Positions 3,632-25,539 of a stretch of 33,677 nucleotides of DNA are shown here, piece after piece. The stretch spans positions 1 to 33,677 of the forward strand of contig JAKAQS010000011.1 of NCBI GenBank assembly GCA_021819585.1, written 5' to 3'. The DNA comes from Acidobacteriota bacterium. GTDB lineage: Bacteria; Acidobacteriota; Terriglobia; Terriglobales; Acidobacteriaceae. Position 1 is the stretch's first letter; every line of letters starts with the position of its first letter. The notes beneath the pieces were generated by a model that was not told the origin of the DNA, did not search any database, and worked only from the letters and a program-made list of their open reading frames with translations. A program made the position numbers and the translations under genes.

Positions 3632-3648
3632 TTCTTTTATCCGTAAAA
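3632..3648. promoter_or_regulatory. operator-like element, near-identical to the one at 25518
   Basis: TTCTTTTATCCGTAAAA differs at one base of 17 from the element at 25518-25534. Its core TTTTA-TCCG-TAAAA is an inverted repeat. It sits upstream of the ROK kinase/PMI genes and overlaps a possible -10, as expected for a repressor site. Confidence 0.6.
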
Positions 3649-3663
3649 GCGATATTTATCGCT
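3648..3663. repeat. palindrome AGCGATA-TT-TATCGCT
   Basis: A perfect 7-bp inverted repeat with a 2-base centre directly abuts the operator-like element at 3632-3648. It resembles a dimeric repressor site and differs in sequence from the recurring element, so it may bind a second regulator. Confidence 0.5.
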
Positions 3664-3798
3664 GCGATGAATCGGCCTTGGGCGACTGCGGGGGCAAGAA
3701 GATCCCAGCCGTGGCCCCGGCCGGACAGGACACTCCCCGAACTCCATGCGAATGACTTGGCATTACGGAATTTGCCGCTACTTTCCGGATCTGTGGCC

Positions 3799-4731
3799 AT
3801 GAAGATTCTGGCCGTCGATCTGGGAGGAACGCACGCCACCTGCGCTCTCGTGGAAGGGCGGCGCATCCTTGTGCGGCAAACGCTTGCCCTGCCCGGCTCG
3901 CCGTCGCTGGCGGCTACCCTCGAGGCCATCGCGAGTTCGCTGGAAGAGCTTCACGCCGGGAGCCCTGCGCAAGGCATCGGTTTTGGCTTCTGCGGGCTGG
4001 TGGATTCCCGGCGAACCCGGATCGCTTCCACGAATGGCAAGTACACCGATGCGGTCGATCTGGATCTTGCGGGCTGGGCGCGCGAGCGCTTTGGGCTTCC
4101 GCTGCGGCTGGAAAACGATGCGCGGCTGGCTCTGCTCGGCGAGTGCTTCGCCGGCGCTGCGCAGGGTGAGACCGACGTGGTTATGTTCACCCTGGGCACC
4201 GGCATCGGCGGCGTGGCCATGATCGGGGGCCGGCTGCTGCGCGGAAAACACGATCAGGCCGGAGTGCTCGGGGGGCACATCCCGGTAAACTTTGCAGGCC
4301 GCCGCTGCACCTGCGGCGCAGTCGGGTGTGCGGAGTCGGAGGCCTCGGGATGGTCGCTGCCGCTTGTGACGCGCGCCTGGCCGGGCTTTGCCTCCAGTGC
4401 GCTCGCCGCCCGCAACATCGATTTTCAAAACTTGTTCGCCTGCGCCACTGCGGGAGATGCTGTCTCACGCGAGATCGTCGACCACTGTCTTCGTGTCTGG
4501 GGAGCGGCAGCCGTCGCCGCAGTCCACTCGTTTGACCCCGAACTGCTGGTCTACGGTGGCGGCGTCATGCAAAGAGCCGATCTCATCCTGCCCTTCCTTC
4601 AGGACTACCTGAACGCACATGCCTGGACGCCCTGGGGCAAGGTTCGGGTTCGCGCCGCGCAACTCGGCAATGACGCCGCGCTCTTGGGCGCGGTTCCCCT
4701 CTTCGATCAGGAGCTTCCCCTTGTACGATAG
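3799..4731 (+). CDS. ROK family sugar kinase
   Basis: This 310-residue ROK protein phosphorylates a hexose with ATP. It has the phosphate-binding DLGGT at residues 7-11, the catalytic Asp107 in ENDARLALLGE, the LGTGIGG loop, and a zinc site formed by His160 plus Cys170, Cys172 and Cys177 in CTCGAVGCAE. No helix-turn-helix precedes the kinase domain, so it is an enzyme rather than a ROK repressor. ATG 3799 is chosen because the ATP motif must lie at the extreme N-terminus; its ribosome site is weak. Its end overlaps the PMI-like gene by 11 bases. The neighbouring isomerase suggests a mannokinase or fructokinase role, but glucose is also possible. Confidence 0.87.
   Translation: MKILAVDLGGTHATCALVEGRRILVRQTLALPGSPSLAATLEAIASSLEELHAGSPAQGIGFGFCGLVDSRRTRIASTNGKYTDAVDLDLAGWARERFGLPLRLENDARLALLGECFAGAAQGETDVVMFTLGTGIGGVAMIGGRLLRGKHDQAGVLGGHIPVNFAGRRCTCGAVGCAESEASGWSLPLVTRAWPGFASSALAARNIDFQNLFACATAGDAVSREIVDHCLRVWGAAAVAAVHSFDPELLVYGGGVMQRADLILPFLQDYLNAHAWTPWGKVRVRAAQLGNDAALLGAVPLFDQELPLVR
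4709..4713 (+). promoter_or_regulatory. ribosome binding site deciding a TTG start
   Basis: AGGAG lies 7 bases before TTG 4721, inside the end of the ROK gene. The protein from this TTG begins with Tyr-Asp-Arg-Phe-Pro, which as I recall resembles the N-terminus of related PMI-like proteins. The nearest upstream in-frame ATG (4670) lies deep within the ROK coding sequence. Confidence 0.7.
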
Positions 4732-6451
4732 ATTTCCCTGTGTTCCCGCAGGCTCCAGCGACGAATGCCTCCAAGGCTGGCCGGAGATTGGCCAGACGAT
4801 TCGAGGCCAGACTCGTCCCGGCCATCTCACCGTCGTCGAGTGTTATCCCGGAGTGTTTCTGGAGGAAGTACGCCGCGAACTGGCCGCCGCTCTGCCGGAT
4901 GCGGCCTTCATCCACACCCCGGACCTCTTTCGTCCCGCCGATGAGATTGACCGAATGCTGGAGCCACTGCTCGGCGACGACCCCGTCTTTGGCCGAATGA
5001 ACTCGATCGAGATGGAGGACTTCTTCGATCCCTCCAAACGAGCCGATGCGCGCCGCCGATGCTCCAATGCGAGCGCCCCTACCGTGATTTTCGGCCCCGG
5101 AGCCTCCCTGGTCGCTCCGCATGCGGACTTCCTCGTCTACGCGGACATGGCTCGCTGGGAGATCCAGATGCGCCAGCGCCGCAATGAGATCGCGAACCTG
5201 GGAGCGGAGAACTTCAGCGAGCGTCCTTCGCTGAAGTACAAGCGCTCCTTCTTTGTCGACTGGCGCGCTGCCGACCGGCTGAAGTCGCGCCTTCTCGACA
5301 AGATCGATCTGCTGCTGGACACCAACCTTCCCAACCAGCCCAAAGCGATCTCCGGCCATGTCCTTCGCCGCAGCTTGGCCGCGGTAGTTCGCCGCCCGTT
5401 TCGCGTGGTTCCATTCTTTGACCCCGGTCCGTGGGGCGGCCATTGGATGGAGCGCGTCTGCGGGCTGCCGGCCGGCGACAATCCGAATCATGCCTGGTGC
5501 TTCGACTGCGTGCCGGAGGAGAACAGCCTGCTGCTCGCCTTCGGTAACCGGCGCGTGGAAATCCCCTCCATCAACGTCGTTCTGGCTCACCCCGAGTCCC
5601 TTTTGGGTTCCGGCATTTATGCCCGCTTCGGCGCGGAGTTCCCCATCCGCTTCGACTTTCTCGACACCATGGGCGGCGGTAACCTTTCGCTCCAGGTGCA
5701 TCCGCTCACCGCCTACATTCGCGAGCACTTCGGGATGGATTACACGCAAGACGAAAGCTACTACCTGCTCGATGCCGCCCCGGGCGCCTGCGTTTATCTG
5801 GGACTGAAAGAGGGCATCGATCGCAACGCCATGTTACGGGATTTGGAGCGCGCGCAGAGCGGCGATTTTGATTTCCCGGCGGAGAACTACGTCAACCGCT
5901 TCCCGGCGCGCAAACACGACCACTTCCTCATCCCTGCGGGCACGGTTCATTGCTCCGGGAAAGATAGCATGGTGCTGGAGATCAGCGCTACGCCTTACAT
6001 CTTCACCTTCAAGCTATGGGACTGGGGCCGGCTCGGTCTGGACGGCCGCCCGCGCCCCATCCATCTGCAGCACGGCGCGGCCAACATTCAGTGGAACCGG
6101 ACAACGGAGTGGGTCCGCCAATCACTGGTGAATCGCGTACAACCGCTCGCCGGCGGCGACGGCTGGCGGGAAGAACGCACCGGACTGCATGAGTTGGAGT
6201 TCATCGAAGCGCGCCGGCACTGGTTCACCAAGACCGTGCCTCACGATACCGCCGGCAGCGTACACGTGCTCAACCTGATCGAAGGCGAGCAGGCAGCCGT
6301 CGAAAGCCCCTCGGGCTCCTTCGAGCCTTTCGTCGTCAACTACGCGGAGACCTTCATCGTACCCGCCGCCGTCGGCCCGTACACCGTCCGCCCCTGTGGA
6401 CCGGATCGCCGCCGCCAGTACGGAACCATACGCGCGCAGGTGCGGGTGTAG
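4721..6451 (+). CDS. class I mannose-6-phosphate isomerase-like protein with long N-terminal domain
   Basis: The C-terminal two-thirds is a type I phosphomannose isomerase cupin, which interconverts mannose-6-phosphate and fructose-6-phosphate with zinc. Gln325 and His327 in LQVHP, the acidic DES-YYLLDA segment and His410 in PAGTVH match the zinc ligands of the family. At 576 residues it is far longer than simple PMIs (about 320-400). The first ~220 residues contain LTVVECYPGVFLEEV, which recalls a kinase-like fold but without a recognisable P-loop. The start is TTG 4721, supported by a strong AGGAG. It overlaps the ROK kinase by 11 bases, giving a kinase-isomerase pair suited to mannose entry into glycolysis. 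The exact substrate is not proven. Confidence 0.82.
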   Translation: MYDRFPCVPAGSSDECLQGWPEIGQTIRGQTRPGHLTVVECYPGVFLEEVRRELAAALPDAAFIHTPDLFRPADEIDRMLEPLLGDDPVFGRMNSIEMEDFFDPSKRADARRRCSNASAPTVIFGPGASLVAPHADFLVYADMARWEIQMRQRRNEIANLGAENFSERPSLKYKRSFFVDWRAADRLKSRLLDKIDLLLDTNLPNQPKAISGHVLRRSLAAVVRRPFRVVPFFDPGPWGGHWMERVCGLPAGDNPNHAWCFDCVPEENSLLLAFGNRRVEIPSINVVLAHPESLLGSGIYARFGAEFPIRFDFLDTMGGGNLSLQVHPLTAYIREHFGMDYTQDESYYLLDAAPGACVYLGLKEGIDRNAMLRDLERAQSGDFDFPAENYVNRFPARKHDHFLIPAGTVHCSGKDSMVLEISATPYIFTFKLWDWGRLGLDGRPRPIHLQHGAANIQWNRTTEWVRQSLVNRVQPLAGGDGWREERTGLHELEFIEARRHWFTKTVPHDTAGSVHVLNLIEGEQAAVESPSGSFEPFVVNYAETFIVPAAVGPYTVRPCGPDRRRQYGTIRAQVRV

Positions 6452-6667: not shown

Positions 6668-6693
6668 GTTCGGGGTAGGGGCGGGAAGATTTG

Positions 6694-10339: not shown

Positions 10340-13300
10340 TTAGAAGATTACCTTGATGGCAAGTTGAATCTGGCGCGCGGTTCCCGTGCCGACTTCGGTG
10401 GAGTCCTCGTCAGCGATCGTCTGCCCAATCTGGCCAAAGTTCGGGTCCGGCGTGCAACTTGCCGGCGCCGTGGCTGAGGCTGCCGTGAAGGCTGTGCAGA
10501 TACCACCGTCAGGATTGCCGAAGTTGGGGTGATTGAGGATGTTGAACAAATCAGCGCGGAACTGCAGCTTCGCCCTTTGGGTCACGGAAAAATTCTTCAT
10601 GCCCGAAAAATCCCACTGGAAGAAGCCTGGAGCCCGAAGCGTATTGCGCCCTACATCTCCCAGGGTCGTGGGATCGCCCGGAACTCCATCGAAGGTCGGC
10701 TCAATCTCAAAGGCGTTGATATTGTAGCTTTGATTGGGCCACGAGAAGTTCTGTAGCCGAACGGGCTTGCCAGTGTAATCCGGCCGGACCGGCAGACCGA
10801 AGATACCGCTCTCGATGGAAACATTTACCGGACCGCCCGAACGGGTCTGGAGAATGCTGGACATCTCCCATCCTCCAAGGACGCCGCGCATCAGCACAGA
10901 ATCTCCGCTGAGATTGGGCAGGTTGTACACCACGCTGGCGGTCAGATTGTTCCGAACGTCCCAGTCGCCCGGTCCCATGTCCTTGGCCGCGTCGTAGGGG
11001 TCTGAAAAGCCGTTGAAGACATTCACCATGTCATTGATCTCTTTCGACCAGGTGTAGTTCACCTCTGCGGACAGCTTGCCCACGTTATGCCGGATCTGGG
11101 CCTGCAGCGCGTTGTAACTGGAGCTGAGTTCATCCGCATCGTAGTCCTCGTTGGCAAAGCCCGACAGAGGATGCACGTCCGTGACGTAGTTCGCAGGATT
11201 CAGGTTAATGGCCGCAAAATCTACGCCTGCCTGCATGCGATGGTCCTGATTGCCGGTGTAGTTCAGCGTGAAGACCGTGTTATGCGGTAACTGCTGCTGA
11301 ATCCCCACCAGCCAGTTGGGAGAGTATGGATCATGAGGATGCTGCGGAAAGATGCTCACGTTCTGTGTGCCCGGAGGCAGCGTTGGATTTGATTCCGGAT
11401 AGGTAAGAGCCTCCTGGAAGATATCCACCGTATAGCTCTGATAGGCCGGCAGATTGCCTACTAGCGTGTCATCAAAGTGCATCGGATTATAGAACAGGCC
11501 ATAGTAGGCGTGGATCACCGTCTGTCCATGGCCGGTTGGGTCATATGCCAGTCCCAGGCGCGGCGCAACATCCACCGTCGGCCCGGAGTACATGGGCTGC
11601 GTTGCCGGCAGAAAAGACTGGGTAGCGAAGTCGAAGTTCTGCTCTTGATTGTCGCGGGCGCTCCAGACGGTGTTGACGTCAGTGCGGAGCCCTACATTGA
11701 CCGTCAGCTCACGAGTCACTCTCCAGTCGTCCTCGGCGTAGAAATCCCAGTTGGAGTCGTGGACGCTCGCAAAGCCCGGATATCCTATCTTTTCCAGAGC
11801 AAAGGGTACGTCATCTTCCAGGTTCGAAAAGCTGGCAAACTCATAGTTCTGGTACTGGCGAAGATACTCGTCAAGCCGGTTGAACTGTAGCTGCAGACCG
11901 AAACGAATGGTGTGACGCGCGGTTGTCTTCGTGGCATTGTCCAACACATCCGTAATAGTGTTGTAGTTGACCTGGTTGAAATCGTTGGCTCCTGGCAGCG
12001 AGCCGAGATCGGTGAAGAAGCCGGAGAACGCCGTATACGGGCGGGGCGTATCGGAATTGGTGTTGGAATCGAATCGGTTGACGGCAAGACTCACTTCATT
12101 GAGAAACGACGGACTGAAGATATGCGTCTCATGGAGCATCCCATACTCCGTCTCCAGGGCAAGCGGTGTAGTTTGGCCCTCGTTCAGGCCGTACTCCTGA
12201 TTGGTGAGCGAGTTGTCGATGCTGTAGCGGGCAAACATCTGGTCGCGATTGGACATGTTGTAGTCCACGCGGACCTCGCCGCTATCTTCGGAGAGGGTGG
12301 TGGGTAACGCCGCCGGATCATAAACCAAGTCAGCGCCGGCCGATGGGCCGGCTGCATCCTCGGTGTCAGGGACCGCACAAGAGACCGGCGCCGGAATCGC
12401 ATTGCAGTCTGCCGGCAGGGGCGCGAGCTGCGCCAGCACCGGCTGCATGGATGGCTCAAACTGGGAGCGAACGTAGGCGCTTGGAACCTCGTAAAGGGAG
12501 TTCACGTCGGTGGTCTTCTGGCGAATCCCCTCGTAGTTAATGAAGAAGAACAGCTTGTTGCGAAAGATCGGGCCGCCCAGATTGCCGCCAAACTGATTCA
12601 ATTGCAGGGGCACCTTGGGATTCGTAAGCGCATTTGCAAAATAATCGTCGGCATCCAGAGCATCGTTGCGGAAAAAGTCGAAGATCTCTCCGTGATAAAC
12701 ATTCGTTCCGCCCTTGGTCACCAGATTCATCTGCGGACCCAGGGAGTGGCCAACCTCGGCGCTGTAGCCGCTGTTGGCAAAATCAATCTCCTGAACGCTG
12801 TCGACGCTGCCCTGCATCAGACGCGATTGCTCGTTGCCCTCCGTCTCGTCGAATCCGTTCACGTCGCCGCGCCCGGCACTCTGGCCGTCCATGGTGACAT
12901 CCAGCCCGGTGAAGAAGTTCTCCTGGCCGTTGACGCTGCCTTGAAAGATTCCGATGGAGTTAACGGACCCTGGCGCGATCTCAAGAAAATCCATGACGTC
13001 TCGGCCATTCGTCGGCAAGTTGCGAAGCTGCGTCTGATTCAGCGTTGTTCCAGAGGTCGCGTTCGCCGTATCTACCGAGGTGGCCGTCCCCGTCACCTCG
13101 ACCTTTTCCGTCGCTGCAGCCACGGAGAGCGTGATGTGGATGCGCACCGCTGCGCCCACATTCAATGCGAAAGGCTGGGTGCTGGTTGTCTGGAAATGAC
13201 TGGCTGCTGCGGAGACCCGATAGTTGCCAAAGGCCAGCCCAGGAGCAGTAAAGCTGCCGTCAGCACCGGTGATGACCCTGGTCTGCTGCGAGGTCTCCAG

Positions 13301-13540: not shown

Positions 13541-13611
13541 GTCAGGGACTGGATCCCTGGCCGCCTCATCGACATCACTTTCCGGAACTCAAATCTTCTA
13601 AATTGATGTTC

Positions 13612-13656: not shown

Positions 13657-13659
13657 GAG

Positions 13660-15083: not shown

Positions 15084-15088
15084 GGTAG

Positions 15089-15094: not shown

Positions 15095-15097
15095 GAT

Positions 15098-17347
15098 CTA
15101 CACTCCCCAGTAGGCGGTCCACTCCGCGCGGGCAGGATCGACAGTAACGCGACCGTCGTTCCCCTTCCGCATTGCCGCGCCATCGACTCGACTCAGCTCC
15201 GCATCCGGCGCCAGACTAAAAGGGATCTCGATCTCATCGGGCGCCTCACCGCCGCTGCGCGAAAAACGCGCCGTCCAACCGTGCAAGCCCGCCGGTTGCG
15301 TATCAAGTGAAACCCTGCCGAAGCGCGTAGGCGTATTGCTCACCGTGAATCCATGGCGCTGCTTCAAGTCCTCAGCCATCACGCCATCCAGCAGCCGCAG
15401 TGTCTGATCGTCTTCCAGCACCAGCATATGGCGCAGGTAGCGAATGCACTCCGCGCTGGCCCAGTTGTGCGGCATATCGCCCCAGAACATGCCGATGAGT
15501 GCGTCCTGCAAAGGCTGCTCCTCGCGCCAGGCATGCAGCGGAGACGCATGGTTCAGATAACCGGCAAAGGTCCGATGCGCCCACTCCCGCAGGCCTGCCC
15601 ACAGGTAGACCTCAGCCACAAAGGCAGCGTTATAGGTCCACACCCCGCCGTGGTGCAGCCAGCCCGTATCGGACGGAATGTCCTCGCGGGTGCATGCCTG
15701 CATCAACGCAATATGTCCGCGCACAATCGGGTCGTCCTTGGCAAAAACCTGGCCCGGGAAGATCGTCTGCGAAAGCGCCCACTGGCAGGTCTGCGGACGC
15801 GGCCTGTCCCACGTATCCTCGTGCATAACAGGGTCCTCGCGCATCACCATCGGGAGATAACGAAACCCTCTTGGGTCGGCAACCATCTGGCTGCGCGCCG
15901 CGGCTCGAAATGCCGTCAGCAGCTCCTGATAGAAACCAGCAGCGCGACCCAGGTCTGGCAGCCGTAGCTTTGCCTGGGCACGAGCCACGGCTCTCAGCCC
16001 GGCCAGCGCCCACAGGGTGTTGGTGAACTCATCATGGATGCCGCCCAGACCGCCGTCCGCGAATCCCGGAGGCAGAATCCCGTAGCGGCCGTTAGGGGAG
16101 TCGCCCTCGCATGCCTCATCGCGCAGAGTGATCAAAAACTCGATCGCATGGCCCACGTGGGGCCCCAGTTGCCGCAACAGCGTCCAGTCCTGCTTCAACT
16201 CGCAGGCGCGAACCACACTGAACATGGCGATGGCAGTGTCTTTGTAGTGCTCGTTACCAGCCGATGCGATGATCTGGCCGCTGGAGGTCTGGTGGGTCCA
16301 TTCTGCAAGCAACCCCTGGTCGGCTGCTCGGTCATATCCCAGATAACGCGCCGCCTCAAGGATAAAGTTCCCGTCCACAATCCACATCCCGCGGTACACG
16401 GTAGGTCCCACCTCGAATACCAACCGGCCATCCTTCACCTCCTGAGCCTGCTGGATGTTGCGCGCACAGGCCACCAGAAAATCCCCTTTCACCGAAGGCA
16501 GCGACCAGGCCACCGCGCCTTCAAAAGGCCTCCAGGTTTGCCACCATGCGCGCACCTCCCGCAGCAAATCCTCCGGTGTAACCGCCGTATCCACTCTGCC
16601 GGAACTACCCTTCTGTGGCAAACGAAACAGCACGCGCAGCGGGTTGCCCCTTTGCGCCACCCCGTGCTCCAGATAGAACTCGTAGCCGCCCTGCGCCCCG
16701 CGCCAGAAGAGATCGCCGTTCTTCGGATACGCATTCTGCGGAATGCATACCATCCACGGCTTCTCCTCCTGCGCGCGATAGATCTGGTTCACCAGGCCTT
16801 CATTCGGCCCCGGTCGAAAGTGCCCGCCGGAGTGAATTCGCACCCGCGGCGAAGCGATCACATCGCCGGCCTTCGCGCGAATCTCCATCAGGACATTGTC
16901 GACCCGCCCCTCGCCGTCGCGGCGGCTGGCAAAGGTGATCAGCTCCATCGTTGCGTCCGGCCGTTCGGTCAGCGTGTGTACGATGGCAACTCCGGGGGCC
17001 TCCATGCGCTGTTCCAGCCATTGGGTACGCGGCATGCCGGCAAGCGTGAACTCCACAATGGCGCCGAACTGCTCGATGCCGGCGAGGCGGTCACCAGGAA
17101 AGTCGTAGCGCAGATCCCCCCATCTTCCGAGTACCGTTTTGTCGGGATCCTGAGGAAAGCAGACTGTGGATTGAAACTCTGTGGGGGCGAACCGAAAGTC
17201 GACCGCCTCATCTCCGGCAACCGCCGGCTCGGCTTGCAGCGTCTCTGTTCCCAGCCCAGTTCCCATCGGCGTAGCCGAAACGTCCAGCCCCGTGAGAACG
17301 CCGGCCGCGGCTCCTGCCGTTAGAAACGTGCGCCGATTGATGGACAT
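15098..17347 (-). CDS. Tat-exported (alpha/alpha)6-barrel glycosidase-like protein
   Basis: This 749-residue protein starts MSINRRTFLTAGAAAG, a twin-arginine signal, so it is folded before export to the periplasm. Residues ~50-270 look like a beta-sandwich. From about 290 onward there are repeated helical segments with conserved aromatics (MWIVDGNFILEAARYLG, HDEFTNTLWALAGL, GWLHHGGVWTYNAAF), the pattern of six-hairpin glycosidases such as alpha-L-rhamnosidase or GH63-like enzymes. I do not recognise a specific CAZy family. Acidic candidates for catalysis lie in VDGNF and HDEF. It sits between cupin isomerase genes and a DUF4185-like gene on the same strand, 12 bases after the cupin stop, so it belongs to the glycan operon. 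Confidence 0.75.
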   Translation of the reverse strand: MSINRRTFLTAGAAAGVLTGLDVSATPMGTGLGTETLQAEPAVAGDEAVDFRFAPTEFQSTVCFPQDPDKTVLGRWGDLRYDFPGDRLAGIEQFGAIVEFTLAGMPRTQWLEQRMEAPGVAIVHTLTERPDATMELITFASRRDGEGRVDNVLMEIRAKAGDVIASPRVRIHSGGHFRPGPNEGLVNQIYRAQEEKPWMVCIPQNAYPKNGDLFWRGAQGGYEFYLEHGVAQRGNPLRVLFRLPQKGSSGRVDTAVTPEDLLREVRAWWQTWRPFEGAVAWSLPSVKGDFLVACARNIQQAQEVKDGRLVFEVGPTVYRGMWIVDGNFILEAARYLGYDRAADQGLLAEWTHQTSSGQIIASAGNEHYKDTAIAMFSVVRACELKQDWTLLRQLGPHVGHAIEFLITLRDEACEGDSPNGRYGILPPGFADGGLGGIHDEFTNTLWALAGLRAVARAQAKLRLPDLGRAAGFYQELLTAFRAAARSQMVADPRGFRYLPMVMREDPVMHEDTWDRPRPQTCQWALSQTIFPGQVFAKDDPIVRGHIALMQACTREDIPSDTGWLHHGGVWTYNAAFVAEVYLWAGLREWAHRTFAGYLNHASPLHAWREEQPLQDALIGMFWGDMPHNWASAECIRYLRHMLVLEDDQTLRLLDGVMAEDLKQRHGFTVSNTPTRFGRVSLDTQPAGLHGWTARFSRSGGEAPDEIEIPFSLAPDAELSRVDGAAMRKGNDGRVTVDPARAEWTAYWGV

Positions 17348-17359: not shown

Positions 17360-18151
17360 TCAGGGCTCCAGCGTCGGCCAGAGCGAGGCCACCCGAACGG
17401 GATCTGAGACCCACTGCAACGCCTCAGGGTTGGCTAGATATTGCCGGTAGATGGAAACCTTCGCGTCCAGTCCCAGCTCCGGATAGCTTCGCGGCCCTCT
17501 CACCTGCAACGAGGACCGGCGATAACGGGGATTCGCCTGCCACTTGATGCTCCCGCCGCGCAGCAGCGGAAACCAGGCCAAGCCGCCGTGCGCCCGAACA
17601 CCGTCGTAGCGGAAGCCGTACTGCCGATCGCAGAGCGCACAGAAGACCATCCGCCGATCCGGATCGGCGTTGATCACGCAATGCGCCCATCCCGGTGGCG
17701 CCACCACTTGATCCCCGGGTCCAGCCGCGACCGCAATGCACTTGCCTGGCTCGTCCTCCGCAAACTCCTGAGCGTAAACAATGGCCCGCCCCTCCCATAT
17801 CTCAAACAGCTCCGGCGTCGACCATCCGCAGTGCGGAGCAGGCGAATGAATATGTCCCTGGCTGCGCACCGGCTCTTCACCCAGCCGTCCCCCTGCGTAG
17901 GCCACCACGCCGAACAGCAGGTATCTGCGCCGCAGATCGTCCGCATCTTCGCTCCGGCAGACATCCATCGCAATGCCGTACACCGGATCAGGGCCGCTGC
18001 ACTCCGGGTCGCGCAGGCTCCTTCGGATCTCGTCAAGCCGGCGCAACTCCACCTCCGGCCCCAGCACCTCCGGCCCGTAGTCGAAGGCCAGCGCCTCCCG
18101 GCGCAGCCGGACGTCCAGCCCTGAGTCGAAACCAACGCCCTGTTCATTCAT
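17360..18151 (-). CDS. cupin glucose-6-phosphate isomerase-like protein, larger copy
   Basis: This 263-residue cupin resembles the metal-dependent archaeal-type phosphoglucose isomerase family (GPI cupin), which converts aldose and ketose phosphates. The first cupin motif is QGHIHSPAPHCGWSTPELFEIWEG, with His-x-His and a Glu as metal ligands, and the second contains PPGWAHCVIN with the final His. It is longer than usual (about 190 residues) owing to extra N- and C-terminal parts. ATG 18151 is preferred over TTG 18157; neither has a clear ribosome site. It overlaps the upstream cupin gene by 8 bases, so the two are coupled and may form one complex. The true sugar substrate is unknown. Confidence 0.75.
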   Translation of the reverse strand: MNEQGVGFDSGLDVRLRREALAFDYGPEVLGPEVELRRLDEIRRSLRDPECSGPDPVYGIAMDVCRSEDADDLRRRYLLFGVVAYAGGRLGEEPVRSQGHIHSPAPHCGWSTPELFEIWEGRAIVYAQEFAEDEPGKCIAVAAGPGDQVVAPPGWAHCVINADPDRRMVFCALCDRQYGFRYDGVRAHGGLAWFPLLRGGSIKWQANPRYRRSSLQVRGPRSYPELGLDAKVSIYRQYLANPEALQWVSDPVRVASLWPTLEP

Positions 18152-18743
18152 GAGCAATCATCGGTCGGCCGTCGCGCTCCACTACCCGCGCGCCAAACCC
18201 GCTCTTTCGTATCGCTGCGTAGTCGTAACCCGCATCGCTGCCCCAGCAGGCCCAGAAGATGAGCGGCTCCTTGCCCACGTTTACTACCCGGTGGGCGTGC
18301 TCCCCCCGGATGTAATGGAGTGTGTTGGGAGCCATCGCCTCGCCCCATGTATTTCGTTCGGAGCCCATCCGCAGCAGGATTCCCTCGCCGCCCACAGTGG
18401 CATAAAACTCCGCACGGGTCTGGTTGGCGTGGAAGTGACCATGCGTCATAAAGTACTCGTCACCCACCTTGCCCGGCTGCAAAACCGTCACGCCCCAAAA
18501 CAAGCCGCCTTCTTCTCCTGCGGGAACGGACGAGACGACGCGGACCCGGTAGATCTCGCGCGCAGGGTCCATGGCGCGGAAAGCCGGCTCGTCGCCGAAG
18601 AGCCCCCGCAGATCGCCCAGAGCCTTGATGCTCTCACGCACACCCGGACCTCGGACTCCGCCACGAGCCCAGTCCAGAACCAGCTCGGCAGGCACGGGCA
18701 CGGCGCCCTCCAGGGATTTCGGCTTTGTCTTCAGTGGTGACAT
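18144..18743 (-). CDS. cupin glucose-6-phosphate isomerase-like protein, smaller copy
   Basis: This 199-residue protein matches the length and motifs of cupin-type phosphoglucose isomerase: MTHGHFHANQTRAEFYATVGGEG carries the His-x-His and Glu ligands, and LHYIRGEHAHRVVN the later His. It would isomerise a sugar phosphate in the cytoplasm using a divalent metal. ATG 18743 is chosen; a TTG at 18785 would add 14 residues without similarity and would sit in the AT-rich promoter. It is the first gene of a minus-strand operon that continues through the second cupin, the glycosidase and DUF4185-like protein. Residues Gly-Ser-Asp-Ala-Gly-Tyr near the C-terminus are also typical of the family, as I recall. 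Confidence 0.82.
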   Translation of the reverse strand: MSPLKTKPKSLEGAVPVPAELVLDWARGGVRGPGVRESIKALGDLRGLFGDEPAFRAMDPAREIYRVRVVSSVPAGEEGGLFWGVTVLQPGKVGDEYFMTHGHFHANQTRAEFYATVGGEGILLRMGSERNTWGEAMAPNTLHYIRGEHAHRVVNVGKEPLIFWACWGSDAGYDYAAIRKSGFGARVVERDGRPMIAHE

Positions 18744-18969
18744 CCTATCAGCGGCGATCCTAGCAGAGTGATTGTTCGCATTCAAGAATAAAAGCTACAA
18801 TAAAATTTCGTTTATGCTCAAAAAGACGATGGACGAGTAATCCGGTTCGGTTGCAGGCCGTAAAGCCCAGATGTGAGAACGTGGCCGCTGTACGCGACGG
18901 CTGCCGGTTCGCTTCCCTTCGATTCCCATTAAATCCAGACGGTCTCCGCAAGCTCCCAAAGATCCAGCC
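18744..18969. promoter_or_regulatory. divergent promoter region between cupin operon and sugar porter
   Basis: This 226-base gap separates two divergent operons. The part at 18770-18830 is AT-rich and should hold the minus-strand promoter; it carries one degenerate copy of the recurring operator-like element. No clear sigma-70 hexamer pair could be assigned to the plus-strand gene. Confidence 0.5.
18807..18823. promoter_or_regulatory. degenerate copy of the operator-like element
   Basis: Read on the minus strand it is TTTTGAGCATAAACGAA, matching 13 of 17 bases of the copy at 25518-25534, including TTTT, ATAAA and GAA. It lies 64 bases before the cupin gene start. Confidence 0.4.
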
Positions 18970-20367
18970 ATGCACATCTCCGTTGTCAGCCATGACTCGC
19001 AATATGCCACTCCGGCCCGCTCCCGCCTCTATGTTCTGTCTCTTGCGGTGGTGGCAGCGATCTCAGGCTTTCTCTTCGGCTTTGATACCGCCGTCATCAA
19101 TGGCGTTCTGCTGTTTTTGCAGCGCCAATTTGCGCTCTCCAGCCTGCAAACCGAGATAGCAGCCAGCGCTCTCCTGCTGGGGTGCCTCTTCGGCGCCGCC
19201 GGCGCCAGCCTGATCGGAGACAGCATCGGCCGGCGCAAGTCGCTGCTGCTGGCAGCCATCCTGTTTGCCTCCTCCACCTTGGGAACGGCGCTGACGCCCT
19301 CAGTGCTGGTCTTTTCCATCGGCCGTCTCTGCGGGGGCCTGGCGATCGGGCTCGCTTCGGTGCTCACGCCGGTGTACATCGCCGAGATCGCGCCGGCGCG
19401 CAATCGCGGCCGGCTGATCTCCATGAACCAGCTCGCGATCGTGGCCGGCATTCTCGTCGCTTATGTGGTGAGCTGGGCGCTGGCAGGCATCGGCGCCTCC
19501 AGTTGGCGCTGGATGCTGGGCTTGGCGGCTGTTCCGGCGCTGGGATTCCTGCTTGGTCTGCTGTTCATCCCTGAAAGTCCTCGCTGGCTGATCAGCCAGG
19601 GCGAACGGGAACGGGGCAGAGAGGTGCTCGCGCGCATCTACGGCCCCGCCCAGGCGGAGCTGCAAGCCGCTGCCGTCGAGGCTGCTGCCGCGGGAGAATC
19701 CGGCACGTGGAGAGAGGTCTTCGCGCCGCCCATGCGCCGCCCGCTGGATGTGGCTCTCGGCCTGGCCATTCTCTGCCAGATCACCGGCATCAACACCGTG
19801 TTGTACTACGGGTCCATCCTGATCAGCCAGCACTTCCGTGGGCAAACTTCAGGCGCTGCGCTGGCCGCGAATATCGTCATCGGCGGGGCCAATCTGGTTG
19901 GCACCCTGCTCGCGCTGCGCTTCATGGATCGCTGGGGGCGCCGCACCATGCTGCTGACCGGTTCCGCGGGAATGACCGTTTCGCTGCTCCTCTTCATCCT
20001 CGCGTATCGCGTTCCTGGGCTTCCCCCAATGCTCTTGCTGGCCTGCATTCTTAGCTACACCGGATTCTTCGCCTTTGCCATGGGTCCGATCCCCTGGGTG
20101 GTGATCGGGGAGATCTTCCCCAATAAAATCCGCGGCCGCGCCGCATCCATGGCCACCTCCGCGCTCTGGACAGGAACCCTCCTGGTCACCCTCACCTTCC
20201 TCTCTCTCATCCGCGTTCTCGGGGTCTCCGGCACGTTTTCCATCTATGCGGTTCTCTGCGCCGCGGGCTTCGTGTTTATATGGACGAGGGTTCCTGAAAC
20301 AAGGGGCAAGACCCTGGAACAGATTCAGCAATACTGGGAGGGCCTGAACCATGGCAAGGCGCGGTAA
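18970..20367 (+). CDS. sugar porter family MFS transporter
   Basis: This 465-residue, 12-helix transporter belongs to the sugar porter family (XylE/GLUT type), which imports monosaccharides by proton symport. Diagnostic motifs are present in order: FGFDTAVINGV in helix 1, DSIGRRKSL, PESPRWL after helix 6, QITGINTVLYYGS in helix 7, DRWGRRTML and PETRGKTLEQI after helix 12. The QITGIN motif marks the sugar-binding helix. ATG 18970 has only a weak ribosome site. It overlaps the downstream DeoR-type regulator by 17 bases, so carrier and regulator are co-expressed. Specificity is not readable, but glucose, xylose, mannose or arabinose are usual for this family. Confidence 0.93.
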   Translation: MHISVVSHDSQYATPARSRLYVLSLAVVAAISGFLFGFDTAVINGVLLFLQRQFALSSLQTEIAASALLLGCLFGAAGASLIGDSIGRRKSLLLAAILFASSTLGTALTPSVLVFSIGRLCGGLAIGLASVLTPVYIAEIAPARNRGRLISMNQLAIVAGILVAYVVSWALAGIGASSWRWMLGLAAVPALGFLLGLLFIPESPRWLISQGERERGREVLARIYGPAQAELQAAAVEAAAAGESGTWREVFAPPMRRPLDVALGLAILCQITGINTVLYYGSILISQHFRGQTSGAALAANIVIGGANLVGTLLALRFMDRWGRRTMLLTGSAGMTVSLLLFILAYRVPGLPPMLLLACILSYTGFFAFAMGPIPWVVIGEIFPNKIRGRAASMATSALWTGTLLVTLTFLSLIRVLGVSGTFSIYAVLCAAGFVFIWTRVPETRGKTLEQIQQYWEGLNHGKAR

Positions 20368-21190
20368 GCCAAAGATGGATGCAAATGCGCGGGAGAGTCC
20401 AGAAGCTAGCCTGAATGGACAGCAGCAGCGGTTTCATTCCATTCTGACCGGACTCCAGGAGCACGGCACGGTCGCAGTCGACGACCTTAGCACCCAGTTG
20501 AGCGTCTCGGTGGTCACCATCCGCCGCGACCTCGATCTGCTCGAACAGCAGGGCCTGCTGCGGCGAACCCATGGAGGCGCGGTCTCCATTGAGCCGCTCT
20601 TTTACGAGCCCTTCAAAAAGGATCGTTCCTTTCAAGAGCAGGTGGAACGTCTCGCCAACGAGAAGCGGAGAATCGGCCGCGCAGCCGCGGCGCTCATCAA
20701 CCCGGGCGAAACGATTGCGATCACTCCCGGCACCACCACTGCGGAGATCATTCGCGGCCTTCCCCTTGCCAGCCGGATCACCGTGGTCACCAACACGGTA
20801 AACATTGCGATGGAACTGTCGAAGCGCAAAGACATCAACGTCTTCGTCACCGGCGGCCACCTGCATGGCGACTGGTTTTCCCTGGTGGGGCCCTCGGCCA
20901 TCCGCAGCCTGGAAAACATGCTTATCCAAACCATGTTCATCGGCGCCGACGGCATCGATGCGCAGTGGGGCCTCAGTTGCCTCAGCTCCGACGAAGCGGA
21001 ACTCAATAGCACCGTGGCCGCTCACTCCCGCAGACACATCGCTGTTGTGGACCACACCAAGTTCGGCGTCGTCACCAACTGGCGCATCTGCGAAATGTCC
21101 CTGATCCAGAAGCTCATCACCGACACCGGCGCAACCGACGAGATGATCGCTCCTTTCCAGAAGCTGGGCATCGAGGTGATCCGAGTCTGA
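20351..21190 (+). CDS. DeoR/GlpR family transcriptional regulator
   Basis: This 279-residue regulator has an N-terminal DeoR helix-turn-helix at about residues 25-80 (ILTGLQEHGTVAVDDLSTQL, VVTIRRDLDLLEQQGLL, then RRTHGGAV) and a C-terminal sugar-phosphate sensing domain (PGTTTAEI, VVTNTVNIAMEL, VTGG, FIGADGID). Members usually repress sugar operons and release DNA on binding a phosphorylated sugar. ATG 20351 has GGAGG 9 bases upstream within the transporter gene; ATG 20375 is an alternative. It overlaps the sugar porter by 17 bases. It is the only regulator in the window and so the first candidate for binding the recurring AT-rich operator-like elements in this locus; that link is inference. 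Confidence 0.93.
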   Translation: MARRGKPKMDANARESPEASLNGQQQRFHSILTGLQEHGTVAVDDLSTQLSVSVVTIRRDLDLLEQQGLLRRTHGGAVSIEPLFYEPFKKDRSFQEQVERLANEKRRIGRAAAALINPGETIAITPGTTTAEIIRGLPLASRITVVTNTVNIAMELSKRKDINVFVTGGHLHGDWFSLVGPSAIRSLENMLIQTMFIGADGIDAQWGLSCLSSDEAELNSTVAAHSRRHIAVVDHTKFGVVTNWRICEMSLIQKLITDTGATDEMIAPFQKLGIEVIRV

Positions 21191-21343
21191 CCCTCCTCAG
21201 CCATCCTCTTCATTTCTCCATTAAATGATCGAGTTCTTTGATAAAGACAGTTTCTATAAACTTTTTCTACAAAAAGAATCGTAATACGGTATGATTTGGG
21301 TGCAAATGGCCTCCGCTCTCGTTCGCATCCGGAATCTCCGCCA
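21191..21343 (+). promoter_or_regulatory. promoter region of the second glycosidase gene
   Basis: This 153-base AT-rich gap has a -10-like TATGAT at 21290-21295. Upstream of it are several small palindromes: CTTT-GAT-AAAG (21236-21246), TTT-CTAT-AAA (21251-21260) and TTTTT-CTAC-AAAAA (21262-21275). No convincing -35 is seen, which may mean an activator is required. Confidence 0.5.
21262..21278. promoter_or_regulatory. operator-like element before second glycosidase
   Basis: TTTTTCTACAAAAAGAA keeps the N4-centred T-run/A-run palindrome and the GAA flank of the other copies (11 of 17 identical to 25518-25534). It lies just upstream of TATGAT. Confidence 0.4.
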
Positions 21344-23536
21344 ATGAATCGCCGTACCTTTCTCAAGATCTCCAGCAGCGCGGCCGCCATGGCTGCCCAA
21401 AGCAACATCCTGGCCGCCTCGCCGCGGATCCTGCCCGCAGTTCCGTCTTTGGCTGACTTGGCCAGCGTGCGCATGCCCCACACCTACATGGAGCTCTTCA
21501 ATCTGCCCATCTCCATGAATGACTGGGGCTACGCGCAGACGGTCAAATCCGTCTCTGCCATCAGCGCCATCGGCTTTCCTCCCTATGCCTGCTGCGGCAT
21601 GCCGGACATACCCTGGAGCCCAGGGCTGCTCACCACCTGCGAGATCTTTGTCCAGGATCGCCTCGTCGCCATCTCCGACGATCCCGCGGAGGCGGTTACC
21701 TACCAGTGGTTCCCGCACTGCGTGGAAAGGGAGCAGACCGTCGACAAGATCTGCTTTCACACCACCCTGTTTCTGCCGGCGCAACAGCGAGCGGTGCTGC
21801 AGAAGATCGAGCTCCGCAACCTCTCTGCGCAGAACCGCACTCTGACACTGGGCTTCTCCATGCGCGCTGCTGTGACGTGCAAGACCACAGCCTGGTTCAC
21901 CAACCTTCCCGGAGAAGGCGACAACCTCAGCTCCTGGGACGCCGCGCACGGCCGAATCACCTGGACCGCGCAGCACTCGCCGGCGGCGGCCGCGCAGGGG
22001 ATGCATCCTCCCGCCGACGCGCTCATCGCCGGAGACATGCTGCAGTACCACCTGGACCTGGCGCCCGGGGCAAGCCGCGAGCTTCATTTTGTCTGCGCGC
22101 TCGCGAACACGGCCGCGGAAGCCAACGCGATGCACGACCAGTTGCAGGCAAACTTCTATGCTACGCAGGGCCACAGTCAGAAGCACTTCGAGCAACTCTT
22201 GCAGTCCGCCTACACCTCCGGCAATAGCGACTTCTCCGGATGCCTGCCCCGTCTGCAAACGGACAGCGAAGCGCTTTGGAACCTATGGCAAAACGGGCTC
22301 AGAGGTTTGCTCAGCGCGCGCCGCCGATCGCCCGACTCCGCTTATGGGCCTACACTCCTCACTCTGAGCGGCCACGTCTTGCCCACGCTGAGCTTTCCCT
22401 GGGACACCTCGCTCACCAGCCTCAGCCTGGCTTTGCTCGATCCCGAGCCCCTGCGCAACCTCCTGGAAGTATGGTTCCAGCGCGACATGCACCAGCATCT
22501 GGCCACCGATTACATCAGCGGCGAAGCCGTCGGCCCATGGTACGCCGTGAATGACATGGCCATCGTCCGCTGCTCGCGCGACTACCTGCGTATCACTGGC
22601 GACTTTGCGTGGCTCGACAAACCGCTGGCCGGTAAGACGATCCTGGAGCACCTGATCGGTCAGGCCACCTACTGGAAACAGTTGGCAGCCGGCAACGGCT
22701 TAGCGGACTACGGCGGCATCGCCAATCTGCTGGAAGTGGTCAGCACCTACGTCCACCAGGTGGCGGGCATGAACGCCGGGAACGTCTCCAGCATGCGCTT
22801 TGTCGCTGAACTGCTGGACCGGCGAGGCCGCAACCATCAGGCGGCGCAACTCCGCGCCGAGGCTAAAGAACTCGCTGCCAAAATCAACCGCATTCTCTAT
22901 GTGCAAGGCAAAGGATGGTGGCGCGCCGGCCGGCCTGGCGGCTCCTTTCAGGAAGTCCGCCACTGTTACGACTTCCTGGCCGTTCTGGACAACATGGGCC
23001 AGGATCTCTCCGCCGAGCAGAAGCAGGAGATGGCGCACTTCTTCTGGACGCAGCTCGCCTCCAAAAAGTGGATGCGTGCGTTAGCCAGCGGCGATCCCGA
23101 TGCCACCTGGAACGTTCGCCCCGATCACAGTTGCCTCGGCGCCTACGCCGCATGGCCTCCGGAGTGCGCCAAGGGTCTCTACCAGGTGGACGACCCCGAG
23201 CGCATCGCCGCATGGCTGGCCGAGGTCGCCAAAGCGGGTAACCAGGGACCCATCGGCCAGGCGCACTTTGTCGAGGAGGTGGTCCCGCCGTTGAAGGGCG
23301 GAGCCTACAAAGCATCGAACGACGCCCCCTACATCGAGGACTGGAGCGCCATCGCCGGGGGCGCCTTCATCGACATGACCATCGAATCGATCTTTGGCGT
23401 TCGCCCGTCACTCTACAACGGGATCCACGCCACGCCACGGCTCGCCGCGTTTGATCCAAACGCACGCCTGGAGGGCCTGCGCTACCAGGGTGGGCAGTAC
23501 ACGGTGTCACAATCCGGGATCAAGCCGTCACGCTGA
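21344..23536 (+). CDS. Tat-exported six-hairpin glycosidase-like protein
   Basis: This 730-residue protein begins MNRRTFLKISSSAAAMA, a twin-arginine signal for periplasmic export. Residues ~60-300 form a beta-rich domain; from ~300 to the end there is a helical barrel with HVLPTLSFPWDTSLTSLSLA, NDMAIVRCSRDYLRITGD, LADYGGIANLLEV and WNVRPDHSCLGAYAAWPPE. The Pro-Trp-Asp-Thr motif and barrel layout recall GH63/GH37-like glucosidases and related six-hairpin enzymes, but I cannot assign a family. It is not closely similar to the other Tat enzyme at 15098. ATG 21344 is chosen because the Tat motif must be N-terminal. It overlaps the convergent esterase gene by 17 bases at the 3' end. Confidence 0.75.
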   Translation: MNRRTFLKISSSAAAMAAQSNILAASPRILPAVPSLADLASVRMPHTYMELFNLPISMNDWGYAQTVKSVSAISAIGFPPYACCGMPDIPWSPGLLTTCEIFVQDRLVAISDDPAEAVTYQWFPHCVEREQTVDKICFHTTLFLPAQQRAVLQKIELRNLSAQNRTLTLGFSMRAAVTCKTTAWFTNLPGEGDNLSSWDAAHGRITWTAQHSPAAAAQGMHPPADALIAGDMLQYHLDLAPGASRELHFVCALANTAAEANAMHDQLQANFYATQGHSQKHFEQLLQSAYTSGNSDFSGCLPRLQTDSEALWNLWQNGLRGLLSARRRSPDSAYGPTLLTLSGHVLPTLSFPWDTSLTSLSLALLDPEPLRNLLEVWFQRDMHQHLATDYISGEAVGPWYAVNDMAIVRCSRDYLRITGDFAWLDKPLAGKTILEHLIGQATYWKQLAAGNGLADYGGIANLLEVVSTYVHQVAGMNAGNVSSMRFVAELLDRRGRNHQAAQLRAEAKELAAKINRILYVQGKGWWRAGRPGGSFQEVRHCYDFLAVLDNMGQDLSAEQKQEMAHFFWTQLASKKWMRALASGDPDATWNVRPDHSCLGAYAAWPPECAKGLYQVDDPERIAAWLAEVAKAGNQGPIGQAHFVEEVVPPLKGGAYKASNDAPYIEDWSAIAGGAFIDMTIESIFGVRPSLYNGIHATPRLAAFDPNARLEGLRYQGGQYTVSQSGIKPSR

Positions 23537-24341
23537 TCTCATCGCTTCGGTCTTCGATATCAGAGACAAAGCGCAGCGTGCTGCGCAACTGTTCGCGCCA
23601 GTACTCCCAGGTGTGGCCGCCGTCGTGCTCTTCGTAGGTGTGCGCTACGCCCTCGGCCTGAAGCGCCTGGTGCAGTGCTCGGTTTCCCGCCAGCAGCGAG
23701 TCCTCCCGCCCGCAGTCAAACCGCAGCGGCGGAAGATGCGAGCGATTCGCGCGTACCCAGTGCAGAACATCAGCATTCTCCTCACCAGCGGCGAGATACT
23801 CCTCCATCGGCTCCTGTACGAACTCCCGCAGATCGCCAATCCGGGTCACCGCGGAGTGCGCAGAGATTCCTTTCACCTTCGCTGCATGTTTGGCCCCCAG
23901 GCGCAGAGCTCCGTAACCGCCCATCGACAATCCTGCAAGATAAAACCGGCTGGTCTCCACCTGGGGCAGCGATTCCCCGATGAACTCGGGCACATCCTCC
24001 ACAATGTACGCCTCCGCGTCGAACTCCCGATGCATCAGATACCCGCTGCCGTCGCCCCACAGCCCGTCGGAAGGCATGGCGATGGCCAAGGGCCGAAGAC
24101 CCCCCGAACGGATCATCGCGTCGGCCGTCTCCCCAACCCTACCCCAAACCCACCAGTTCCAGTGGCTGCCGTAGACGCCGTGCAACAGAAGCAAAAGCGG
24201 CAATCTGCCTTGCGCGGGCGCGTTTGGAACATACAGGCTCAGATCCGCGCGGCGGCCGAGCGCCGGGGAGTACAGCGTGGCAAAGCGCACGCCAGACGCA
24301 TCCACTGGCTCGGACAACTTCGCGTGACGAAAGCGGCTCAT
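23520..24341 (-). CDS. serine esterase (esterase D/FrmB-like alpha/beta hydrolase)
   Basis: This 273-residue alpha/beta hydrolase resembles the esterase D/S-formylglutathione hydrolase and CE1 carbohydrate esterase group. A complete triad is visible: Ser139 in GLSMGGYGAL, Asp214 in GREDSLL and His243 in DGGHTWEYW. The oxyanion region LLLHGVYGSHWNWW follows a beta-strand near residue 50. No signal peptide is evident, so it probably acts in the cytoplasm, for example removing acetyl or aromatic acyl groups from imported sugars. Its ATG overlaps the stop of the upstream DUF4185-like gene (ATGA), so the two are coupled. Detoxification of formaldehyde is an alternative role, but the operon setting favours a carbohydrate esterase. 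Confidence 0.85.
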   Translation of the reverse strand: MSRFRHAKLSEPVDASGVRFATLYSPALGRRADLSLYVPNAPAQGRLPLLLLLHGVYGSHWNWWVWGRVGETADAMIRSGGLRPLAIAMPSDGLWGDGSGYLMHREFDAEAYIVEDVPEFIGESLPQVETSRFYLAGLSMGGYGALRLGAKHAAKVKGISAHSAVTRIGDLREFVQEPMEEYLAAGEENADVLHWVRANRSHLPPLRFDCGREDSLLAGNRALHQALQAEGVAHTYEEHDGGHTWEYWREQLRSTLRFVSDIEDRSDEISVTA

Positions 24342-25501
24342 GGCTTCCCGGTACTCCTCTCCCCGCTAACCATCGCCGGCATCGGCATGCGCACCGCGCG
24401 CGGGAAGTAGATTCCCATCTCCGTGGCCAGCTTCGGCGGCGTCAGCGTATTGCAGACATAGGTGAAAACCAGATCGCCATGCTCGAATTCGGGATGTTCC
24501 TTGGCCGCGTAGCAGAAGTTATCTTTGTCGTAACGCGGATCTCCCGGCTGCATCTCCGGAACGGTATAGAGGATCTGCCCCGCGCTCCATGGCCCGGTTG
24601 CTGTGGGAGCGGTCCGCAGCAGGATGTGGCTGGAGAAGGCCTGGGGATCGAACATCACGGCCATCCACTGCTTCAGGCGCGGATGGTATCGGATGGAGAG
24701 CTCGGAGATTCCGGGCGACATCACCTCTTGGGCGTCGCCAGGATCGAACCCGTTGCGCCACTGCCCGTCGCGCGCCAAATACTCCAGGTTCTTCCGCGGG
24801 GCCGTAAGCCCGCGTAGCGGCGCCCGCGACGCGATCAGCGGCCTTGCGCCGCGTTCGTCCAACGCAAAGATGTCGGCATAACGCCCGTCCACAACCGCTG
24901 TGGCGGAGGGATACGCCCCTGCTCCATCGGCTACCAGCGGGAGATAGCTGATCTTCCAGCGCAGGGGATCCGGGCCAGGCGACTCGATCCGCGCCAAATC
25001 TGTCCCGCAGGTTGCAAAACCCATCGCCGAAGACTTATCCGTCGCGTGGACGCACAGCAGCGTGATCCAGAGGTCATCTCCAGCACGGAATCCATCCAGC
25101 GCCCAGTACCACGTATGCGGATGCCGCGGCTTAAAAAAGCTCACCGGTCGCCCCTGAGCATCCTTGCGGATGAAGTATCGGATCCGCCAGCGCCCGCTCG
25201 CTCCGCAGGTCGAGATACCAATCGTGTTGTGGACCATCACCGGAGCCTTGTCCCGCACCACGCGGCGCGGCCCATAGAGCGTATCCCCGAAGACCCAGAC
25301 ATCCGCGCCATTCGGCTGCGGAATCGAATAGGCCGCATCCGCTCCCAGCCATCCATCCGTCTTGCCTGTCTGCAGAGGGAACCGCGGAGTGCATGCTGCA
25401 TCAGGCCCCACCGCCCAGGCTCTTCCGCAGCACAAGATCATCGCCGCGGCGAAAGCCAAGCAGGCATGACTCCACCTCATCAACGAACGATTTGCATTCA
25501 T
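24338..25501 (-). CDS. secreted DUF4185-like beta-propeller protein, copy 2
   Basis: This 387-residue protein has a signal peptide (residues 1 to ~30, ending Ala-Trp-Ala) and a domain clearly related to the protein at 13908-15083. Shared segments are GWLGADAAYSIP, a Val-Phe-Gly-Asp-Thr strand (Phe-Asp-Asp-Thr in copy 1), HNTIGIS, a Trp-x-Trp-Ala-x-Asp motif, RWKISYLPL, and FCYAAKEHPEFE near the end. As in copy 1, a DUF4185-type glycan-cleaving role is plausible. ATG 25501 has no ribosome site and lies about 10 bases after a likely -10, so the mRNA may be leaderless; ATG 25480 is an in-frame alternative but also lacks a ribosome site and would shorten the signal peptide. It heads a two-gene operon with the esterase. 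Confidence 0.7.
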   Translation of the reverse strand: MNANRSLMRWSHACLAFAAAMILCCGRAWAVGPDAACTPRFPLQTGKTDGWLGADAAYSIPQPNGADVWVFGDTLYGPRRVVRDKAPVMVHNTIGISTCGASGRWRIRYFIRKDAQGRPVSFFKPRHPHTWYWALDGFRAGDDLWITLLCVHATDKSSAMGFATCGTDLARIESPGPDPLRWKISYLPLVADGAGAYPSATAVVDGRYADIFALDERGARPLIASRAPLRGLTAPRKNLEYLARDGQWRNGFDPGDAQEVMSPGISELSIRYHPRLKQWMAVMFDPQAFSSHILLRTAPTATGPWSAGQILYTVPEMQPGDPRYDKDNFCYAAKEHPEFEHGDLVFTYVCNTLTPPKLATEMGIYFPRAVRMPMPAMVSGERSTGKP

Positions 25502-25510
25502 TAGAAGATA

Positions 25511-25539
25511 ATTATTGTTCTTTTATCCATAAAACACAA
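25511..25539 (-). promoter_or_regulatory. promoter of the DUF4185-like/esterase operon
   Basis: On the minus strand TTGTGT (25539-25534) and AATAAT (25516-25511) are separated by exactly 17 bases, and the operator-like element fills the spacer. The predicted start near 25504 is only a few bases before ATG 25501. Confidence 0.55.
25518..25534. promoter_or_regulatory. operator-like element, best copy
   Basis: On the minus strand it reads TTTTATGGATAAAAGAA, with core inverted repeat TTTTA-N4-TAAAA. It differs at one base from the copy at 3632-3648. It occupies the -35/-10 spacer, where a bound protein would block RNA polymerase. Confidence 0.6.

Follow-up and report, generated by a model that had tools for sequence, protein, structure and literature searches.

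Are the sugar-related genes gathered on one acidobacterial contig under the control of a single regulator, and through what sequence would that control be exerted? The contig, JAKAQS010000011.1 of the Acidobacteriaceae assembly GCA_021819585.1 (93% complete), was analysed over a window of 33,677 nucleotides, one of 347 contigs and 0.87% of a 3.88-Mb genome. Between about 3.6 and 25.5 kb, a block of genes encodes a ROK sugar kinase, a PMI-like protein, a TonB-type receptor, two cupin isomerase-like proteins, a sugar porter, two glycosidase-like and two DUF4185-like proteins, an esterase and a regulator of the DeoR family; genes for an MFS transporter and for two dehydrogenases are interspersed. 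Five promoters of this block carry what is probably a paired switch, read by a repressor encoded mid-block. The palindrome, its pairing, its conservation at many orthologous promoters and the confinement of the pairs to the block are all read from sequence comparison.

The initial annotation drew attention to two 17-mers, at 3632–3648 and 25518–25534, and correctly placed them and described them as differing at one base. This pair constitutes the only matches within two mismatches in the whole genome (reversed control, 0). The TTTTA-N4-TAAAA core occurs three times in the window at up to one mismatch, against 0.05 expected, and the weaker copies reported at 3604, 13612, 18807 and 21262 were found as claimed. 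A caveat about chance 17-mer pairs was also fair: the window holds 20 direct pairs with at most one mismatch, several being shifts of one another, against 1–10 in ten shuffles, so the 3632/25518 pair is by itself weak evidence. The 17-mer is a portion of a 21-bp palindrome, TTCKTTT-N7-AAAMGAA, the full extent of which was absent from the initial annotation; the 'GAA flank' described there is present and forms the outermost part of the arm, AAAMGAA.

The full palindrome was defined with the help of genomes G018 and G001, where DeoR is 64% and 60% identical to the window protein, respectively, and where a promoter common to the ROK and receptor genes carries TTCGTTT-TGGCGAT-AAACGAA and TTCTTTT-ACCATCT-AAACGAA (either strand). 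The pattern was fixed from these two genomes and the window, the K and M letters being picked with the window in view. From 80 collected loci encoding DeoR relatives, 23 of L076–L099 formed a held-out set of 96 upstream regions (25.4 kb), leaving out L074 and L075 (G023 and G003, already examined) and L095 (a near copy of L094). At up to two mismatches, the held-out regions contain 22 matches in 20 of the 96 regions, compared with 0.53 ± 0.69 (maximum 2) in 60 dinucleotide shuffles, and 202 kb of coding DNA contains a single match. Among 42 permutations of the half-site letters, the real pattern ranks first, the next reaching 7 matches. The best spacer is 7; spacers of 8, 13 and 2 give 9, 8 and 7 matches, respectively. 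A de novo gapped-palindrome search placed TCGTTT-N7-AAACGA on top, and strict TTCGTTT-N7-AAACGAA, which has no window-derived letters, yielded 17 matches in 17 held-out regions.

Symmetric matrix fitting by expectation maximisation collapsed onto AT-rich sequence, and a plain matrix built from the 22 held-out sites, none from this genome, was used instead. Its three best sites in the window are at 3600 (21.9), 18807 (21.4) and 25518 (19.7), and the highest single-site score in a 181 kb sample of the same genome is 11.1. They are followed by 29830 (18.3), 33303 (14.4), 3632 (12.3) and 13609 (12.1), with 21259 at 7.0. A matrix from the strict pattern returned the same top three (19.0–19.3; sample maximum 9.8), with 13609 ranked eighth and 3632 absent from the list.

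A second palindrome, which does not figure in the initial annotation, lies 31–32 bp (centre to centre) from the strong ones in many cases. Of 49 site pairs within 9–90 bp, a count that takes in the window promoters and repeated registers (e.g. L089 and L092), 37 lie at 29–34 bp; shuffled flanks gave 0.62 (maximum 3 in 100 shuffles). When one partner was taken per held-out region, 14 of 31 fell at 30–33 bp (in one case the partner scores below zero), compared with an expected 1.88 (maximum 7 in 100 shuffles). Scored as pairs at 31–32 bp, the window has five peaks, at 3600 (34.2), 25486 (28.9), 18776 (27.1), 13609 (19.6) and 21228 (15.8); all other listed values are overlapping shifts of these peaks (to 6.6) or at most 1.8, and the maximum in the own-genome sample is 2.3. 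The strict matrix recovers the same five pairs (13.1–28.1; sample maximum 1.4), and since its seed contains no degenerate letters, this matrix owes nothing to the window. Six promoters had originally been proposed to carry the element. Five are upheld by their pair scores, that of glycosidase 2 most weakly, and the sixth, a half-site at 6658 before the MFS transporter gene, is lost: the matrix score there (position 6660) is −4.2 and no pair is present. In a scan of 117 loci (1.66 Mb, with certain places represented twice), 68 pairs reached a score of at least 10. Genes that match a window protein have 58 of these pairs ahead of them or at their start, and one inside; with duplicates removed, the figure becomes 47 of 57.

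Chance resemblance among AT-rich promoters was tested as an explanation of these sites. It would accord with the 20 17-mer pairs in the window and with a genome-wide count of the palindrome that equals its control, yet composition-keeping shuffles gave 0.5 matches where 22 were found, same-letter permuted half-sites gave at most 7, and the preferences for one spacer and for pairing both contradict it, making chance barely credible as the source of the sites.

Candidate 29830 was rejected as an operator; it lies at the start of an apparent L30 gene (read by eye) and its pair score is −1.9. Both 29830 and 33303 fall within genes read by eye as ribosomal, and these single-site matches in the ribosomal operon are due to chance. 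The stretch 28900–33677 on the minus strand reads by eye as an spc-type ribosomal-protein operon, adjoining SecY and adenylate kinase.

Confinement to the block is a property of the pairs. At up to two mismatches, the full pattern occurs 16 times in the genome and 18 times in the reversed control, and counts in 61 genomes at up to one mismatch are likewise broadly not above the control; as the counts are close to control, only the positions of the sites serve as evidence. Four of the 16 sites lie in the window, at 3600, 13609, 18807 and 25518, all in promoters, and 12 lie elsewhere in the genome. A pair model, R1, was built from 26 sequences, none from G000 (the source genome), G023, G003, G018 or G001, and run on eight genomes. 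In G000, R1 made six matches at four places (18780, 3599, 25487 and 21261), all inside the window, and in G023, G003, G018 and G001 all nine matches were at promoters of this block. G041 and G043, in which no DeoR match was found, gave one weak match each (E 1.55 and 0.84) on contigs other than that of PMI, and G006 gave none. Clustering of matches at this locus, which the initial annotation had put forward as a check, is thus borne out in the positions of the sites and in the R1 pairs of G000, all of which are in the window.

Conservation at orthologous promoters, a second such check, gave a mixed answer: many promoters keep the element and several are without it. ROK promoters match the pattern with no mismatch in G214 and G178 and with one in G084 and G234. 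With a matrix score of at least 12 as the threshold, the own window counted and some loci having also trained the matrix, the site is present at 11 of 14 ROK, 11 of 16 cupin, 9 of 17 receptor, 3 of 10 glycosidase 2 and 3 of 11 DUF4185b promoters. The 18776–18827 pair is retained in G023, G003 and several further genomes; the glycosidase 2 pair is retained in G023 and absent in G003. For DUF4185b, the window, G023 and G003 all have the site at −37, that of G003 being degraded. Because many but not all orthologous promoters keep the site, the regulon, as judged from these promoters, is conserved in part and turning over. In L087, a pair at 14022–14077 lies between the genes for UxuA (mannonate dehydratase) and DUF4185. 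The window, scored for pairs, has no peak before UxuA; in certain other genomes, UxuA may be a further member of the regulon.

The suggestion of a single regulator for the whole block, possibly the DeoR protein encoded from 20351, is supported: the element recurs at orthologous promoters in DeoR-keeping genomes, and this association points to DeoR as the binder. DeoR combines an N-terminal HTH_DeoR domain (PF08220; 66.1 bits, above the cut-off of 21) with a C-terminal DeoRC sugar-sensing domain (PF00455; 156 bits, above the cut-off of 31.8), and no other helix-turn-helix family was found in 30 scanned frames at E ≤ 0.001. Its best NCBIfam match is AgaR (NF040755), at 209 bits and under the equivalog cut-off of 260; no aga genes were recognised in the block. 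G041 and G043 carry PMI with ROK and both cupins and have no DeoR match, and in the 12 and 14 kb around cup1-ROK-PMI of these two genomes, a small sample, no pattern match was found (two mismatches, spacers 6–8); the best single scores there are 9.7 and 10.0 and the best pairs 1.4 and −3.2. In Hymenobacter (Bacteroidota), where DeoR is 52–56% identical, the PMI promoter has a site scoring at least 15 (lowest 15.2) in 18 of 18 loci (L104, L109–L111, L115–L118, L120–L128 and L134), against 0.20 expected, although these loci come from related species, with some sites identical, and are not independent events. Partner offsets of 30 and 31 bp rank first there with negative mean scores (−9.6 and −9.7), and pairing is weak. 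Hymenobacter and Acidobacteriaceae have the PMI-DeoR pair and its operator in common, which suggests joint retention, or joint movement between phyla, of the regulator, its operator and the gene.

A regulator other than the local DeoR, such as any of the four further DeoR paralogues, could instead bind the sites, by itself or jointly with the local protein. The genome has five DeoR matches, and similarly built sites, as would be expected within one family, occur in several of 24 paralogue loci; ATCGT opens four of these sites (e.g. ATCGTTT-N7-ATACGAT in L015). Nevertheless, the paralogue loci contain only two pattern matches (up to two mismatches) in 88 kb; in 61 genomes the exact pattern occurs, among the matches listed, only at two clusters with this DeoR; and the site accompanies DeoR through rearranged gene orders and into Hymenobacter. 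Binding by another regulator is therefore considered unlikely. The 7-7-7 palindromes of L013, L015, L020 and L024 begin with ATCGT, not TTCGT, a difference that could possibly represent a specificity code between DeoR paralogues.

It is proposed, with considerable confidence, that the paired sites are operators of the local DeoR-family repressor, in a scheme that links repressor, tetramer and inducer. Each of the five promoters would hold two 21-bp palindromes, often one strong and one weak, 31–32 bp apart. This spacing of three helical turns would place two DeoR dimers on the same face of the DNA, able to touch, and suggests that they act as a tetramer. Without substrate, DeoR would cover the promoter elements and silence the receptor, glycosidases, transporter, kinase and isomerases, and through the 18776–18827 pair it would control its own operon. 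DeoRC domains generally sense sugar phosphates, and a phosphorylated sugar arising in the pathway would bind this domain and release DeoR. We infer DeoR as the binder, repression, cooperativity, the inducer and the sugar from these features taken together. The presence of a kinase and of isomerases points to a hexose phosphate; enzymes of the DUF4185/GH183 family are described as cutting D-arabinan (PMC10115798). With less assurance, though on balance favoured, a DeoR subfamily of Acidobacteriaceae and Hymenobacter that occurs with the PMI gene may bind as a tetramer to a double operator of palindromes three helical turns apart.

The direction of control is suggested by the positions of the pairs. 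At the receptor promoter, both hexamers of a promoter-like TTGACA/TATTTT match (13656–13627, minus strand) overlap with the pair, the glycosidase 2 pair overlaps another at 21266–21295, and the inner copy of the DUF4185b pair overlaps the start codon at 25501; such promoter-like matches are no commoner than chance (6 versus 4.3, and 1 versus 0.9). Pairs placed on promoter-like hexamers and reaching a start codon fit a repressor. An activator whose sites recruit polymerase could be imagined from G018 and G001, where a promoter-like TGGACA/TATAGT (by eye) lies downstream of the sites that precede ROK, and one DeoR-family NCBIfam entry carries the name 'activator'. The overlaps in the window speak against this, as do the DeoR-type sugar regulators compared, which act as repressors in the portions available (PMC3870299, PMC2222622), and activation is judged quite improbable.

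Several observations weigh against a paired operator read by the local DeoR. The genome-wide single-site count at up to two mismatches is not above the reversed control, and single sites yield false positives, 29830 among them. The R1 matches in G000 are individually weak (E 0.016–0.52); the receptor pair falls below the R1 genome-wide list and was seen only in a filters-off scan of the window; and at glycosidase 2, R1 joins 21261 to a downstream partner (21261–21308), unlike the matrix, which favours 21228. For 17 of the 31 held-out regions, the best-scoring partner falls outside 30–33 bp. Promoters scoring under 12 comprise 3 of 14 for ROK, 8 of 17 for the receptor, 5 of 16 for cupin, 7 of 10 for glycosidase 2 (the window's own promoter included) and 8 of 11 for DUF4185b. 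Among the ROK misses, L088 is cut by a contig end, and in G306 a pair lies 286 bp upstream and is shared with the receptor; for DUF4185b, none of the eight loci other than those of the window, G023 and G003 has a site, and some of these genes may be operon-internal. The site is missing for several DeoR relatives from other lineages at about 50% identity, and from most lineages beyond Hymenobacter with a DeoR near 50% identity or less, G053 included. Furthermore, the same-build sites near other DeoR genes allow cross-talk or a different DeoR as binder.

A local DeoR regulon is a known kind of control, of which the paired-palindrome arrangement is a variant; the comparisons that follow reflect the available portions of the cited sources. 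Escherichia coli DeoR resembles the proposed regulator in its family, in having several operators per operon and in joining separate sites through the protein, but there the operators are single, separated by some 600 and 300 bp, and involve looping (PMC8053113), whereas the palindromes of the window lie 31–32 bp apart at the promoter. RhaR regulons of the DeoR family are likewise local sugar regulons found by comparative genomics, and Chloroflexus RhaR is released by the pathway sugar L-rhamnulose; RhaR motifs, however, are direct repeats with a 10–11 bp period (PMC3870299), in contrast with the paired inverted repeats found here. Corynebacterium SugR is also a DeoR-type repressor with two 21-bp sites inside a single intergenic region, and is released by its effectors, which are sugar phosphates; it differs in that its sites are non-palindromic and AC-rich and its targets are scattered across the genome (PMC2222622). 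DeoR-family motifs of Caldicellulosiruptor fall into two symmetry kinds and were searched as palindromes or as repeats with 21/32-bp periods; their repeated units are 7–11 bp (PMC8579813), whereas in the window whole palindromes recur at 31–32 bp. Paired palindromes at three helical turns were not found described for the DeoR family in the portions of the literature compared, a literature search with the half-site letters and DeoR returned no paper, and no DeoR regulon in Acidobacteriota was found described in open-access literature as judged by its listings. Regulation in Acidobacteriota seems little charted, and the present result adds a candidate operator together with its putative regulator and a list of proposed targets; the spacing rule, in turn, hints at how two repressor dimers may cooperate.

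Table 1. Proposed paired operators and genes of the block, with window coordinates, matrix scores and domain matches.
Feature	Position	Strand	Remarks
Paired operator before ROK/PMI	3600–3620 + 3632–3652		32 bp apart; scores 21.9 + 12.3; also before ROK in G003
Paired operator before receptor	13609–13629 + 13641–13661		32 bp apart; scores 12.1 + 7.5; weak in G003 (6.6)
Paired operator between divergent cupin (−) and transporter-DeoR (+)	18776–18796 + 18807–18827		31 bp apart; scores 5.7 + 21.4
Paired operator before glycosidase 2 (weakest)	21228–21248 + 21259–21279		31 bp apart; scores 8.9 + 7.0
Paired operator before DUF4185b/esterase	25486–25506 + 25518–25538		32 bp apart; scores 9.2 + 19.7
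DeoR-family regulator, proposed binder	20351–21190	+	PF08220 (2.3e-18), PF00455 (1.1e-45); overlaps sugar-transporter 3′ end
ROK sugar kinase, proposed target	3667–4731	+	PF00480
Large PMI-like protein (610 aa), proposed target	4619–6451	+	PMI name from initial annotation, by eye
TonB-type outer-membrane receptor, proposed target	10340–13528	−	PF25183, PF13620
DUF4185-like protein	13908–15122	−	PF13810 (4.8e-6, 26.5 bits, below cut-off 39.5)
Glycosidase-like protein 1	15098–17347	−	Name by eye; no Pfam family at 0.001
Two cupin glucose-6-phosphate-isomerase-like proteins, proposed targets	17360–18785	−	PF06560 in both
Sugar porter upstream of DeoR, proposed target	18970–20367	+	PF00083, TIGR00879
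Glycosidase-like protein 2, proposed target	21296–23536	+	Name from initial annotation; Tat signal match; weak GH94 supersandwich match (E 0.0053)
DUF4185b + esterase, proposed targets	23520–25501	−	PF13810 (above cut-off), PF00756

The names 'PMI' and 'glycosidase' were given by eye or taken over from the initial annotation, and no library assigns them at the usual cut-off. The PMI-like protein has no family match in Pfam or NCBIfam; its gene is matched in 7 of 61 genomes, the own genome counted, and relatives of 61–66% identity occur in a different family of the same order, within the class and in Hymenobacter. The portion of the ROK kinase that is conserved in G018 and G001 begins at the ATG at 3799 in alignments. 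The nearest named orthologues of DeoR, at 94% and 88% identity, are in two Granulicella metagenome-assembled genomes. From gene order, both the DUF4185-like gene, in a distal position, and the gene for glycosidase-like protein 1 probably belong to the cupin operon. DUF4185b (24338–25501) reaches 45.3 bits against a DUF4185 (PF13810) cut-off of 39.5, and no PDB relatives were found for it or for either glycosidase-like protein. Both glycosidase-like proteins have Tat-signal matches below the cut-off and no curated Pfam family, and are possibly new hydrolase families; their genes are kept beside a DeoR orthologue in many genomes.

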